DNA of 36,358 nt. Source: Balneola sp. (GTDB taxonomy: Bacteria; Bacteroidota; Rhodothermia; Balneolales; Balneolaceae). Positions 17,280 to 32,814 of this stretch are shown piece after piece; positions within the stretch are counted from its first letter, which is position 1, and the number at the start of each line of letters is the position of its first letter. A program made the translations under genes and the position numbers. Where the stretch lies: the NCBI GenBank assembly GCA_002696035.1, contig NZQV01000012.1:1-36358 (forward strand), in the 5' to 3' direction. The notes below the pieces were generated by a model, which ran no database searches, was not told the DNA's origin, and worked only from the letters and a program-made list of their open reading frames with translations.

Positions 17280-17636
17280 TCAGTTATTTTCGATCAGTAG
17301 TCGCCATCGTGGAACAATATGTGTTCTCGTAAAAGTGATGTCTTCTGATCGTATGTCAATTATTTGCACGGTAATCATGCGTCCGTCTATCGCTTGAATG
17401 GTCCCCCGAAGGTTGTACAGGTTGACACTTTGGCCTACTTCCCATTCCGGGTAATCCGTATTTGAAGAGGCAATATCACTGCCAGCTACTATACAGGACC
17501 CGTTAATCACATCTCCATAGGTCAGGTTTTCAACGCGATACAGCTCGGGGTTACCAAGCGAAACGATATCGGATATCACACCCTGCCATCCACCTCGGGC
17601 AGATGTCAGGGTTACGATATCGTCAATCTGTTGCAT
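17280..17636 (-). CDS. Hypothetical head-region protein, 118 aa
   Basis: A small all-beta protein with SH3/KOW-like strand spacing (WEVGQSVNLYNLRGTIQAID, then MITVQIIDI) and a basic C-terminus. No family is recognised. The ATG shares a base with the major capsid protein stop (TAATG), so translation is coupled to capsid. A head-stabilising or cement role is possible from position alone. Confidence 0.62.
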   Translation of the reverse strand: MQQIDDIVTLTSARGGWQGVISDIVSLGNPELYRVENLTYGDVINGSCIVAGSDIASSNTDYPEWEVGQSVNLYNLRGTIQAIDGRMITVQIIDIRSEDITFTRTHIVPRWRLLIENN

Positions 17637-18625
17637 TACCCGTTAGTGACTAACTTGGTAATCAGGATATTTTTATCCTCGTACTTCTTCGTGTAGTTGC
17701 TTCCGTCCTTCAGCTCAGCCACAGTTGGGCTCTTGCCTGCAATAGACCCGGTAAAGGCAACGCCTCGGGGGTGAACTACGAAGTGACGACGGGTTACAAG
17801 AACCGTATCACTTGCAAGGATATCGCGGTCACTTTCAAACGCTTCATTCTCATCCAGTGATTTCTCACCAAACCCGAAAGCGCCATTACCAAAGAGGTAT
17901 GAAGTGTACTTGGTACCGGATGTACTACCGGCTTCCGTGGGAAGCCCGTCATCCACAATAACCTCACGTCCAAGGAATCGGGGGATCTCAATGTCCTGCT
18001 CGCTGATAGGCTCAAAAGTGATGAGATCATCTTTCTGCATTTGACGGAACACTGTTGAGTGTACCGCAAGCGCCCTCACTTTATTCCAGTGGTCGCCCAG
18101 CTTACCAATGGTATCGATGATAGCATCGGAGCTTACCAGGTTAGCAGCACTACCATTATTGACATAATCCTCGCTGGAAATGTCATTTACGTGTGTTGAA
18201 GACAATGCAGTTGCAAACACACCGGTAAGAGTAGGAATCAGGATGTCTTCCTGCATTCTTTCGCTCCACCACTTAGCCCATGCTTGTGCAACGGCTTCTC
18301 CTGGATCATCACCTGAAAGGTGTTTTGCCAAGTCATTCCAGCTTCTGGCATCACCAACAAGGTGCTTGATCGCTTTATCCTGAGCGCCAGACACTTTACG
18401 AACAGTAAGTGAGCCGGTGTCAGATAATTGCTGTAGTGATCCACCAAGAGCTTGCCAGAAAGGCATGTTAATAATTGATCCACCGCCCTGAACTTCGTCT
18501 CGAACTTCGGGGTCGTTGAAAATGATACCGCTTTGAAAGAGCCGATTTAGCTTCGTGCTCATTTCGCGGAAATAGGGTACCCAAATCTCAGGTACAATAA
18601 CGTCAGATACTAATGTCTTAGCCAT
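17636..18625 (-). CDS. Major capsid protein, 329 aa
   Basis: The sequence has the typical start of HK97-fold coat proteins of the gp13-like group: SDVIVPEIWVPYFREMSTKL, then a segment resembling the E-loop and spine helix (GGGSIINMPFWQALGG), and a long middle with DKAIKHLVGDARSWNDLAK. The C-terminal RRHFVVHPRGVAF strand is also typical. It follows the scaffold, separated by a tRNA-like element. A GAGG site is seven bases from the ATG. No N-terminal protease domain is present, in keeping with a separate scaffold. Confidence 0.9.
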   Translation of the reverse strand: MAKTLVSDVIVPEIWVPYFREMSTKLNRLFQSGIIFNDPEVRDEVQGGGSIINMPFWQALGGSLQQLSDTGSLTVRKVSGAQDKAIKHLVGDARSWNDLAKHLSGDDPGEAVAQAWAKWWSERMQEDILIPTLTGVFATALSSTHVNDISSEDYVNNGSAANLVSSDAIIDTIGKLGDHWNKVRALAVHSTVFRQMQKDDLITFEPISEQDIEIPRFLGREVIVDDGLPTEAGSTSGTKYTSYLFGNGAFGFGEKSLDENEAFESDRDILASDTVLVTRRHFVVHPRGVAFTGSIAGKSPTVAELKDGSNYTKKYEDKNILITKLVTNG

Positions 18626-18783
18626 CTTGTAGCCTCTATTGTGTTTTATTTATGGTTTGTTTAATCGCTTCATCTGTCGCGTCACGCTGCACGTCAGAAG
18701 CTGTGCGACTACCAATCCATTGCCGCTTCACGCTGCACAATACAGGCCATTAGGCCTTTAGGTAGGTCAGTATGTAAATAAGT

Positions 18784-18812
18784 GCTATTACCGTATCACA
18801 CTGCGTAATAGC
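18784..18812 (-). other. Hairpin just 3' of the tRNA-like gene
   Basis: GCTATTAC and GTAATAGC form a perfect 8-bp inverted repeat with a 13-nt loop, starting five bases after the tRNA-like 3' end. It lacks a U-run, so a processing or stability element is more likely than a terminator. Confidence 0.5.
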
Positions 18813-18816
18813 TTTG

Positions 18817-18887
18817 TGGCGAGGGCCGGAATCGAACCGACGTCGGCAGGGTTATGGGCCCCGCTTGGAACACAGCACCTCCTCGCA
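18817..18887 (-). tRNA. tRNA-Met-like gene (anticodon CAT), D-arm degenerate
   Basis: On the minus strand: a T arm GTCGG-TTCGATT-CCGGC, an anticodon arm CGGGG-CCCATAA-CCCTG, and a seven-base acceptor with six good pairs. Two features resemble initiator tRNA: an unpaired 1:72 position and three G-C pairs at the base of the anticodon loop. Two features are abnormal: base 33 is C rather than T, and only 17 bases lie between acceptor and anticodon stems, too few for a normal D arm. CCA is not encoded. It could be a reduced tRNA, a decoy or a decaying gene. Confidence 0.6.
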
Positions 18888-18890
18888 GTA

Positions 18891-18922
18891 TAAAAACCAT
18901 AAGGCCAATCAAGCCCTTATGG
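18891..18922 (-). terminator. Intrinsic terminator after the scaffold gene
   Basis: On the minus strand CCATAAGG pairs with CCTTATGG across a 10-nt loop and is followed at once by TTTTTA. It lies about 20 bases past the scaffold stop and only four bases before the tRNA-like gene. It would reduce flow from scaffold into tRNA and capsid, or mark the processed 5' flank. Confidence 0.75.
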
Positions 18923-18941: not shown

Positions 18942-19808
18942 TTAATTATTAAAATATTTATCAGGATTAAACCCAGCTTGCCGCATCAGTGACTTAGCTT
19001 TATCAGGGTTTTCCCTGTATAGTTTCCCGGCCGCCGTAATATTCAGCGTGCCGTCTTCTTTCTTCAATTTGTTGGATTCAGCCTTACTTGCTGCTCCATT
19101 GTTAGAAGCTCCACCGCCCGAATTGTCAGCAGCAGGCTTGTAGTCTTTCACTACATCTTTGGATGCCACTCGTTCGAGTACCTCCAGTGCTCCATCAGGA
19201 TCTTTCAAGTCACCACCAACAATGCGGATATCTCCGTTGTCGTCGGTTACTTCGATAGAGTCCATCGCACGCTTCAGATCAGGAAGCTCACCGGTTTCAA
19301 TATCAAGCATCAACCACCGGAGGCGTTTAGGATCACTAAATCCGTACTTCTCCGCCATCTTCTGCTTGATCCAGTCCTTTTTAAATCGTTCAAGAAGAGT
19401 GCTTTCTTTTTCCTTTAGCTGCTCTTCTTTAGTCTCATATTCCTTATCAAGCCGTTCCTTGATCTCCCGCTCTTTCTCCCTAACCTCTTCAGATACAGCC
19501 TTATTAAAAGCCGCCTCATCCTTGGGATCGATCTTTCCTCCACTGGGAGGATTATCAGGGTCAATATCTTTCAGCTTATCCCATTTATCAGCGTCAAAGT
19601 TGTCAGGGTACTTGGAGAGCTTTCTTGTTAACTCTTCATTGGTATCACGTTCTTTCTCAAGGGAAGCTTTCACCCGGTCAATATCGGCCTGAGTTTTAAC
19701 CCCGCCTTCCAGCTTTATCTTATACGAGCCATCAGCTTGCTCGGTGTAATGTTCAGCCAGACCTTCTGGAATTTCCTCTTTGGTCTTGTAAATCGCTTTT
19801 AAGCTCAT
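18942..19808 (-). CDS. Capsid scaffolding protein, 288 aa
   Basis: This highly charged helical protein, with a coiled coil at about 45-150 (KEREIKERLDKEYETKEEQL), is typical of phage scaffolds. These fill the procapsid and guide capsid assembly before exit. The N-terminus SLKAIYKTKEEIPEGLAEHY is shared with many scaffold proteins next to coat genes. The C-terminus has a Gly/Asn/Ala linker and a small basic helical end, the usual coat-binding tail. It sits directly upstream of the major capsid gene. No protease motif is seen. Confidence 0.85.
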   Translation of the reverse strand: MSLKAIYKTKEEIPEGLAEHYTEQADGSYKIKLEGGVKTQADIDRVKASLEKERDTNEELTRKLSKYPDNFDADKWDKLKDIDPDNPPSGGKIDPKDEAAFNKAVSEEVREKEREIKERLDKEYETKEEQLKEKESTLLERFKKDWIKQKMAEKYGFSDPKRLRWLMLDIETGELPDLKRAMDSIEVTDDNGDIRIVGGDLKDPDGALEVLERVASKDVVKDYKPAADNSGGGASNNGAASKAESNKLKKEDGTLNITAAGKLYRENPDKAKSLMRQAGFNPDKYFNN

Positions 19809-31777: not shown

Positions 31778-31867
31778 TTAGTCTTTCTTTGGGAACGGGC
31801 TACACCCGGCCTCGCTACAATAGGCACCGCAGCAGGTTTCTGGTTTAGGCTTGGGTTTATCACTCAT
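31778..31867 (-). CDS. 29-aa cysteine-rich protein coupled to intI
   Basis: I read this short frame directly (MSDKPKPKPETCCGAYCSEA and nine more residues). Its ATG overlaps the integrase stop as ATGA. It has a Lys/Pro-rich start and four Cys in a short span (CC-x3-C-x4-C). Tiny Cys-rich proteins with a basic Pro-rich leader occur in many phages. Too short for certainty. The stop-start coupling is the main support. Confidence 0.45.
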   Translation of the reverse strand: MSDKPKPKPETCCGAYCSEAGCSPFPKKD

Positions 31868-32814
31868 GCTATTTCCCTCAACAAACTTTCAACCGGGCTT
31901 TCAATCCGTTCCTTGACAATTACGTGTGTGTACCTCTCAGTGGTACGGATGTTCTTATGCCCGAGTAGTTCTTGCACGGTACGAATATCAACCCCGCTTT
32001 TTAGTGCTTGGGTGGCAAAAGAATGGCGAAGGGTGTGTGTGCTTACTTTCTTGTGGATGCCAGAGACCCGAACGGCTCTCTTCAAAGCCTTTTGCACCGT
32101 ACTGGGTGAAATGTGATATCGTTTCCCTTTACTGATCTTTGAAGACGGGAATAGATACTGCCATCCGGTTTCTTTCGAGGCATTCGGGTATTTCTTAGCC
32201 AATGCTTTTGGTAGAGGTGCTTCACCATATCCACGCACCTTATCCTTTTGGTTGCGCTTGGTAGCTCGTATTACTTGGTTTGTGAGTGCCTTTTTCAGCA
32301 TATCCGGCAGCAAGGTCGTGCGATCCTTCAACCCCTTCGCATTCCGCACATAGATCTGTCCGTTCTCAAAGTCGATGTCATTGATCCTGAGTCGAACCAC
32401 CTCAGATATACGCATTCCGGCACCGTACTGAATGAACGCAATGAGTTTCGGTCGGCCACTCATTCGAGATAGTATCGCTCGTACTTCTTTTGGAGATAGC
32501 ACGGTTGGCAGATGTTTGGATTCCTTTGCTTGCTTTAACCCATTTAAACCCTTCATATCCTTATCCAGACAATCAAACAGAAACTTCACCGCACACAACG
32601 CCTGATTATGAGTTGAACCCGAAACGGATCTTTCTTCTGACAGGTAATTCAGGTACTCCACCACCTCATCCTTGCCAATATCATCCACGCTGTTCTCAGA
32701 ATGATACCCAAAGAAGTCGGTGATCCAGTGGATGTAGCTTTTTTCGGTTCGGGATGCGTAGTTCCTTCTCCTTATCTCCTTTCTAACTAATTCAACTGCT
32801 TTTCGCTTATTCAT
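31864..32814 (-). CDS. intI: Integron-type tyrosine recombinase (IntI-like), 316 aa
   Basis: A tyrosine recombinase with the full catalytic set: Arg135 (GAGMRISEVVRLR), Lys in GLKDR (about 160-163), His260 and Arg263 (THTLRHSFATQAL), His286 (LLGHKNIRTTERYTH) and nucleophile Tyr295. Between Lys and His is the extra IntI segment, LPKALAKKYPNASKETGWQY at 201-220, which ordinary phage and XerCD recombinases lack. Length is close to known IntI proteins (320-340). It should join attC single-strand hairpins to attI. It is the only integrase in the window and may serve the integron, phage integration or both. There is no clear ribosome site or promoter, so co-transcription with the cassettes is likely. 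Confidence 0.93.
   Translation of the reverse strand: MNKRKAVELVRKEIRRRNYASRTEKSYIHWITDFFGYHSENSVDDIGKDEVVEYLNYLSEERSVSGSTHNQALCAVKFLFDCLDKDMKGLNGLKQAKESKHLPTVLSPKEVRAILSRMSGRPKLIAFIQYGAGMRISEVVRLRINDIDFENGQIYVRNAKGLKDRTTLLPDMLKKALTNQVIRATKRNQKDKVRGYGEAPLPKALAKKYPNASKETGWQYLFPSSKISKGKRYHISPSTVQKALKRAVRVSGIHKKVSTHTLRHSFATQALKSGVDIRTVQELLGHKNIRTTERYTHVIVKERIESPVESLLREIA

Follow-up and report, generated by a model that had tools for sequence, protein, structure and literature searches.

What is the small tRNA-like gene that lies just ahead of the capsid gene in this Balneola sp. contig, and is it a working initiator tRNA? The stretch of DNA analysed here (the window, 36,358 nucleotides of NZQV01000012.1) is an entire contig of a 3.97-Mb bacterial genome, and an IMG/VR record of the same length contains it. 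All ORFs read as phage genes lie on the minus strand, and the source element, as judged from its sequence, is an SPP1-like phage. The initial annotation had offered three options for the gene: a reduced functional RNA, a decoy for host factors, or the decay of a normal tRNA. In the direction of transcription the putative scaffold gene is followed by a terminator-like hairpin, 4 nt, the tRNA, 4 nt, an 8-bp hairpin and the capsid gene. The features of this locus were as follows:

17636-18625, minus strand, major capsid protein (SPP1 gp13-like); PF20036 at E 2e-10, above the cut-off, and 39.9% identity to the SPP1 coat protein
18784-18812, minus strand, hairpin that follows the tRNA, its 8-bp stem perfect and its loop 13 nt long (GCTATTAC/GTAATAGC; fold z -2.64)
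18817-18887, minus strand, initiator-type tRNA gene, tRNA-Met CAU, no encoded CCA (ARAGORN; Rfam tRNA model 23.4 bits; covariance models R1 62.8 and R2 54.9 bits)
18892-18922, minus strand, intrinsic-terminator-like hairpin with a T5 tail, upstream of the tRNA (CCATAAGG/CCTTATGG; fold z -3.66)
18942-19808, minus strand, putative scaffolding protein, assigned by position and size only; sub-threshold Pfam match to DUF3482

The earlier placement of the gene was reproduced with two amendments. The tRNA starts 4 nt after the T5 end of the terminator-like hairpin, as had been stated, and the hairpin that follows it is indeed a perfect 8 bp, but it begins 4 nt past the discriminator base rather than the five bases given before. 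Of the two flanking genes, the capsid identity was borne out by the Pfam and SPP1 matches, whereas that of the scaffold follows from position and size. A sigma-70 promoter scan near the tRNA found no promoter, and a comparison of the surrounding intergenic DNA with phages gave no match. The motif TANNTTTG was rejected, as it showed no excess over shuffles. We also observed that the terminator tail (18889-18902) can pair with the capsid-gene leader (18650-18663) at 12 of 14 positions, spanning the tRNA, and an alternative structure of tail and leader across the tRNA is possible. The leader carries an 18-nt direct repeat (18675-18692 and 18721-18738) with 16 of 18 positions identical.

ARAGORN, which had been proposed as a check, called a tRNA-Met(cat) at 18887-18816 on the minus strand, the only tRNA gene in the whole window. 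The Rfam score of the gene was below the gathering score of 29, so the tRNA is unlisted at the default threshold. Read 5' to 3', the RNA consists of U1, acceptor strand GCGAGG, connector A, the segment GGUGC-UGU-GUUCC, AA, anticodon arm GCGGGG-CCCAUAA-CCCUGC, variable region CGAC, T arm GUCGG-UUCGAUU-CCGGC, acceptor strand CCUCGC, C72 and A73, with no CCA. Its arms were located as follows:

18825-18841, minus strand, T arm of 5 bp (sequence, Rfam and ARAGORN)
18846-18864, minus strand, anticodon arm with a 6-bp stem GCGGGG/CCCUGC and loop CCCAUAA; C33 at 18857, anticodon at 18856-18854
18867-18880, minus strand, one-nt connector (A) and possible mini D-arm, read from sequence and the ARAGORN drawing; one U.U mismatch, one G.U, layout resembling that of the compact class

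The initiator features named in the initial annotation were all found: the CAU anticodon, which ARAGORN read as well, three G:C pairs next to the anticodon loop (29-31:39-41) and an unpaired 1:72 (U1.C72). The C33 that it had named as an exception was found too. In the available text of PMC9976931, the E. coli formylase is described as depending on an unpaired 1-72, with A73, G2-C71, C3-G70 and G4-C69 as minor determinants. The window tRNA has every one of these signals, with U1.C72 rather than C1.A72. For the E. coli initiator the same text also names U33 as one of the features that MetRS reads, and the window tRNA, having C33, could be charged less well. In the host, the initiator tRNA (L031) has the canonical form, with the loop CUCAUAA and a D region of 19 nt.

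Viral contigs were scanned for an initiator core with C33, which gave at least 120 loci. The C33 set comprised 121 matches (two incomplete) and 102 unique sequences, 96 of them with an acceptor score of 5 or more, the window excluded. Among the matches listed, these 96 unique tRNAs had a 1:72 position that was not Watson-Crick in 76 cases, G2-C71 in 88, C3-G70 in 84, G4-C69 in 73 and A73 in 90; the search pattern had required none of these acceptor signals. The viral C33 initiator-type tRNAs listed mostly keep the formylation signals. A second scan, with positions 32, 33, 37 and 38 left free, gave at least 120 matches, of which 116 were counted and which may include host sequence. The loops of these 116 cores, among the matches listed, were CUCAUAA (75), CUCAUAU (11), UUCAUAC (7), CCCAUAA (6), UUCAUAA (4), CCCAUAC (3) and others (10). 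C33 occurred in 10 of the 116 (14 of 120 if the four uncounted stretches are added, which are already-collected loci, probably from the C33 scan), and position 38 was not A in 30 of the 116, again among the matches listed. Among 296 genomes of the host phylum, a C33 core was present in one, the window itself, and a U33 core in 256; a core without A38 was present in one, in a prophage-like region of genome G043.

BLAST matches of the window tRNA were followed into six records (five regions), one of them that of Pseudomonas phage D3. This phage carries an initiator-type tRNA with C33, and near-identical matches came from four more Pseudomonas phages and another D3 isolate; the D3 tRNA shares the type and C33 with the window tRNA but has a normal D arm and an encoded CCA. 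MT835930 gave a partial match. Matches in Mesorhizobium phage P1, Vibrio phage VH7D and Streptomyces phage TunaTartare were set aside, their D arms being ordinary as read by eye.

The D region had been called overly short. It is shorter, yet the stretch from acceptor to anticodon stem measures 17 nt in the window tRNA against 19 in the host initiator, and 18-20 nt in 70 of the 85 unique C33 phage tRNAs with a clear acceptor register (among the matches listed, window included), so the shortening is small. The features absent are U8 (position 8 is A), A14, GG and a clean 4-bp D stem. The possible D stem GGUGC/GUUCC forms four of five pairs, G.U counted, with one U.U, and its UGU loop has no GG. 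The minimum-energy fold of the isolated RNA was not a cloverleaf, but lay only 0.4 kcal/mol below it. In the ensemble the D, anticodon and T pairs had probabilities of 0.12-0.17, the U.U none and the acceptor near 1, and the D-stem register, on which an R11:Y24 pair depends, is uncertain. A minimum-energy fold that likewise differs was obtained for three of the 11 core members (L097, L280, L281) of the viral class described below.

Some viral initiator-type tRNAs have a short and differently built D region. A mini D-arm pattern run on viral contigs gave 18 loci, 14 of them unique. Ten were kept; the other four (L276, L278, L282, L285) were dropped, being canonical tRNAs that had matched out of register. 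When the pattern was loosened to require C33 and an A after the acceptor, it matched 26 loci, which added L295 and recovered L139 and the window. The resulting class, A1, has 11 members of equal length with an average identity of 68%, two of them being 96% identical. These 11 distinct viral tRNAs share a compact layout, which covariation supports: a one-base connector (A), a D stem of 3-4 bp, a loop of 3-5 nt and, in 10 of the 11, an anticodon stem with a sixth pair. Paired cells made up 98.6% of the A1 alignment, and the covariation score was 0.576 versus a shuffled mean of 0.132, and also far above slid controls. In three of the four D-stem pairs both partners vary. A count of doubly changed pairs was less decisive (10 versus a shuffled mean of 7.5, reached in 23 of 500 shuffles). 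Columns fixed by the pattern are uninformative (G2, C3, A8, the first D pair, GG, the GGG/CCC stem, CATA and most of the T loop), and the GG in the D loop was fixed in this way for 10 of the 11 members. As a control on the D stem, perfect pairing with a match's own partner strand occurred in seven of the 14 unique matches, versus three of 182 pairings with another's.

RNAalifold, given no structure, predicted a 7-bp anticodon stem for the compact class. The first pair of this extension was present in 10 of 11 members, with five double changes, and the second in seven of 11; the equivalent first pair was found in one of 20 canonical C33 tRNAs. ARAGORN also called four of the tested members (L056, L227, L269, L295) tRNA-Met. 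The looser pattern, with C33, gave nine matches in 84,980 bacterial and archaeal genomes. Seven were ordinary, with D stems of 4-5 bp and loops of 7-8 nt, and in the other two (L287, L292) the acceptor paired poorly in every register tried, L292 having a 3-bp hairpin with a 5-nt loop; hence no clear compact tRNA with C33 was found in these genomes. The compact shape thus does not appear here as a bacterial housekeeping tRNA, as far as a pattern with C33 can tell. The two poorly pairing C33 initiator-like cores come from two Lachnospiraceae genomes and are possibly pseudogenes or another layout.

Two covariance models were then compared, R1 built from the 11 compact tRNAs and R2 from 20 canonical C33 tRNAs. 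The window tRNA favoured R1 by 7.9 bits. All 34 canonical tRNAs preferred the canonical model, by 22-46 bits, and three training members preferred the compact model by 34-39 bits, a lead far larger than that of the window tRNA. Among 11 other short-D candidates, eight preferred the compact model (by 6-31 bits) and three (L180, L222, L152) the canonical one. When 61 further viral loci, most of them with U33, were searched with the compact model, two reached E 1e-10 or better: L198, a U33 tRNA (62.5 compact versus 46.8 canonical, +15.7), and L228, which scored evenly (61.3 versus 62.6). The compact model by itself is not specific: it matched 283 of the 296 phylum genomes, mostly at ordinary initiators by scores and lengths, with the window as the best match. 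The second-best phylum match, L308 (genome G209, 1501-1574), scored 62.0 compact versus 54.8 canonical (+7.2). It has a D hairpin AGGAG-CGG-CUCCU (5 bp, CGG triloop) after a longer connector, has U33 and lacks GGG:CCC, and is missed by ARAGORN; its neighbours are small DNA-binding-type ORFs that look phage-like by eye.

The window tRNA shares with the compact class the connector A, the short D region and the 6-bp anticodon stem, and differs from it in the U.U mismatch of the D stem and the loss of GG (UGU loop). Its 19-nt anticodon arm, with A, C or T allowed at 38, was found in viral contigs only in the window itself, L227 and L284, the last two having a single compact-D core member in common. 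We take the window tRNA as a probable diverged member of the compact class, with decay as the main rival.

Known tRNAs were compared with this layout. With bacterial tRNA-fMet the window tRNA shares CAU, GGG:CCC, the unpaired 1:72, A73, G2-C71, C3-G70 and G4-C69, but it has C33 instead of U33, one connector base, no U8, a possible mini D-arm and a 6-bp anticodon stem. The available text of PMC7609411 describes a single connector, a small D loop, a longer anticodon stem and a three-nt variable region in Methanosarcina tRNA-Pyl and mammalian mitochondrial tRNA-Ser(UCN); neither "phage" nor "initiator" occurs in that text. The window tRNA resembles tRNA-Pyl of the Methanosarcina type in its single connector nucleotide, predicted small D loop, 6-bp anticodon stem and short variable region. 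It differs, as far as the passages available describe tRNA-Pyl, in having CAU not CUA, A73 not G73, an unpaired 1:72 not G1:C72 and a 4-nt variable region, and in being phage-encoded; the anticodon, discriminator and first pair rule out that it is a tRNA-Pyl. Type I mitochondrial tRNA-Ser(UCN) likewise has the single connector, small D loop and 6-bp anticodon stem, and the viral class keeps GG and TTC (PMC7609411, in part), but its isotype is another, and the window D loop lacks GG and its variable region is 4 nt. The available text of PMC6337575 describes ZtRNA, a synthetic tRNA-Pyl scaffold whose D loop has GG and whose T loop has UUCRA, as active in E. coli; the same GG and UUCRA are seen in core members of the viral class. 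In the accessible passages of the open-licence literature on phage initiator tRNA, position 33 and D-arm loss, we found no description of a compact-fold initiator-type tRNA, and those of the phage literature contained only brief mentions of initiator tRNA. The Shigella phage of PMC12482277 has no tRNA-fMet according to the text available.

The anticodon arm, the acceptor signals and the compact-like layout of the window tRNA are supported by computation. We put at about even chance the reading that the gene is a real phage tRNA of initiator type with a reduced core, which would start translation late in infection and be a poor target for host nucleases. The reduced functional RNA of the initial annotation is thus the best supported of its three options, since compact-D tRNAs recur in distinct viral contigs with compensatory changes and C33 tRNAs mostly keep the formylation signals. 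In the available text of PMC11551756, a tRNA wholly without a D arm was charged and used by the E. coli machinery in vitro, and in vivo after mutation of a nuclease gene, so a compact core would be no bar to function. In the proposed course of events, head-gene transcription that reads through the upstream terminator would include the window tRNA, which host RNase P and 3' nucleases would excise and to which the host would add CCA. Charging with Met and formylation would follow, and the tRNA would serve in initiation late in infection. Host nucleases that recognise the anticodon loop of the initiator would cut it poorly, owing to C33 and the remodelled core.

The role considered most likely would be that of a phage-owned start tRNA less exposed to tRNA-cutting defences. 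This idea draws on a published hypothesis, the range of loop variants seen, the host's PIN-domain matches and a phage RtcB. Phage tRNAs with anticodon-loop changes have been proposed to evade tRNases, and phages are said generally to avoid encoding tRNA-fMet where VapC targets it, in the available passages of PMC10264068; an enteric VapC cuts the initiator tRNA at 38/39 according to the accessible part of PMC4105405. The tRNAs treated in PMC10264068 are, like the window tRNA, phage tRNAs with an anticodon loop unlike the host's, but its available passages describe no compact core, and tRNA-fMet is generally avoided there (the S. flexneri case). The window tRNA keeps A38, which counts against evasion. 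The host genome gave 11 PIN-domain matches, one with an internal stop, and such matches also occurred in 10 of 14 control genomes. The RtcB gene on the same 36-kb phage contig is:

33245-34399, minus strand, RtcB RNA ligase (PF01139, E 4.9e-112; DIGCG and GTLGGGNHF motifs)

RtcB is a possible partner of the phage tRNA and could repair other cut tRNAs. As far as is known, the usual substrates of RtcB do not fit the ends left by PIN nucleases. RtcB was found beside other viral initiator-type tRNAs in one of 246 loci, these loci being fragments.

A wider proposal, which we hold only tentatively, is that phages evolved a compact start tRNA on a tRNA-Pyl/mitochondrial-Ser scaffold, with altered loops, as a private initiator for use while the host initiator is destroyed, and that the window carries a diverged member. 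Natural compact phage initiator-type tRNAs would suggest that bacterial initiation already accepts such a fold. Such tRNAs would also be a source of candidate orthogonal initiators, and with them the tRNA-evasion hypothesis could be tested at the initiation step.

The strongest rival, though in our view the lesser prospect beside a working tRNA, is that the gene is a decaying pseudogene, a normal initiator-type tRNA acquired by the phage whose D arm is eroding. The D-stem mismatch, the lost GG, the missing CCA and the sub-threshold Rfam score are what decay would leave, the D region is merely 2 nt shorter than the host's, and other short-D forms score between the compact and canonical models. 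Relatives were sought at the capsid locus. A capsid bait retrieved from viral contigs the window's own contig and three relatives (L002-L004), in whose stretches neither ARAGORN nor either covariance model found a tRNA; in L002, 54 nt separate the scaffold-like gene from the capsid gene. The capsid search of 195 related genomes, its own included, gave only the window's own match and none in the other 194, a terminase bait in viral contigs matched only itself, and no close relative of the window tRNA was found. A prophage-like region of G043, a genome from the same bacterial family, has a capsid-like gene followed directly by an initiator-type tRNA whose D arm is normal and which has U38 (L313, 16643-18743). 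From its translations we read this region as a probable Mu-like prophage and its 308-residue ORF as the putative capsid protein. A tblastn search (E up to 1e-3) with 45 window proteins against 40 kb of G043 matched only a peptidase (58% identity) and the adjoining small protein (28%). Given the mismatch, the lack of a close relative and this normal-D tRNA, decay keeps a real share of the probability. However, no pair is missing from the acceptor (6 bp), anticodon (6 bp) or T stem (5 bp, with G.U included), and the signals for formylation are all present, so erosion would have to be confined to one arm. In addition, the connector and the length of the anticodon stem, besides that of the D region, match the compact class.

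A rather improbable reading makes translation irrelevant: the tRNA shape would be a place for RNase P to cut and so create a new 5' end of the capsid mRNA, which the downstream hairpin would protect. The acceptor and T arm, which suffice for RNase P, are intact, and the tRNA has a terminator-like hairpin on one side and, on the other, a hairpin just ahead of the capsid gene. However, the initiator anticodon arm, CAU and the 1:72 mismatch would be left unexplained, and compact and short-D tRNAs elsewhere have varied neighbours, including endolysin, methyltransferase, virion protein and many without an assigned family (30 ORFs, by hand). A comparison of 95 near with 95 far ORFs, of 238 and 348 made by crude gene calls, showed portal, terminase and head families among the near ORFs (first 25 of 92 near and of 132 far families).

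The decoy, which would bind a host factor (formylase, IF2 or an anticodon nuclease) with no role in translation, is very improbable: initiator signals on an altered core and the host PIN-domain matches fit it, but it has no specific support, and a nuclease decoy should keep the recognised loop unchanged. A chance tRNA-like sequence is unlikely in the extreme, despite the low Rfam score, because 400 first-order Markov copies of the window (14.5 Mb) gave one ARAGORN call, a tRNA-Leu, and the window tRNA reached E near 1e-12 (a rough value) under two covariance models built without it.

Two further observations were made in the window. Dispersed repeats of 45-46 nt lie around the RtcB gene and the contig end (33039-33084, 34915-34960 and 35953-35998; 33182-33226 and 36086-36130). 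A tyrosine recombinase at 31864-32814 on the minus strand was called an integron integrase (TIGR02249, 341.8 bits, cut-off 265), a type of recombinase that is, to our knowledge, unusual for a phage.
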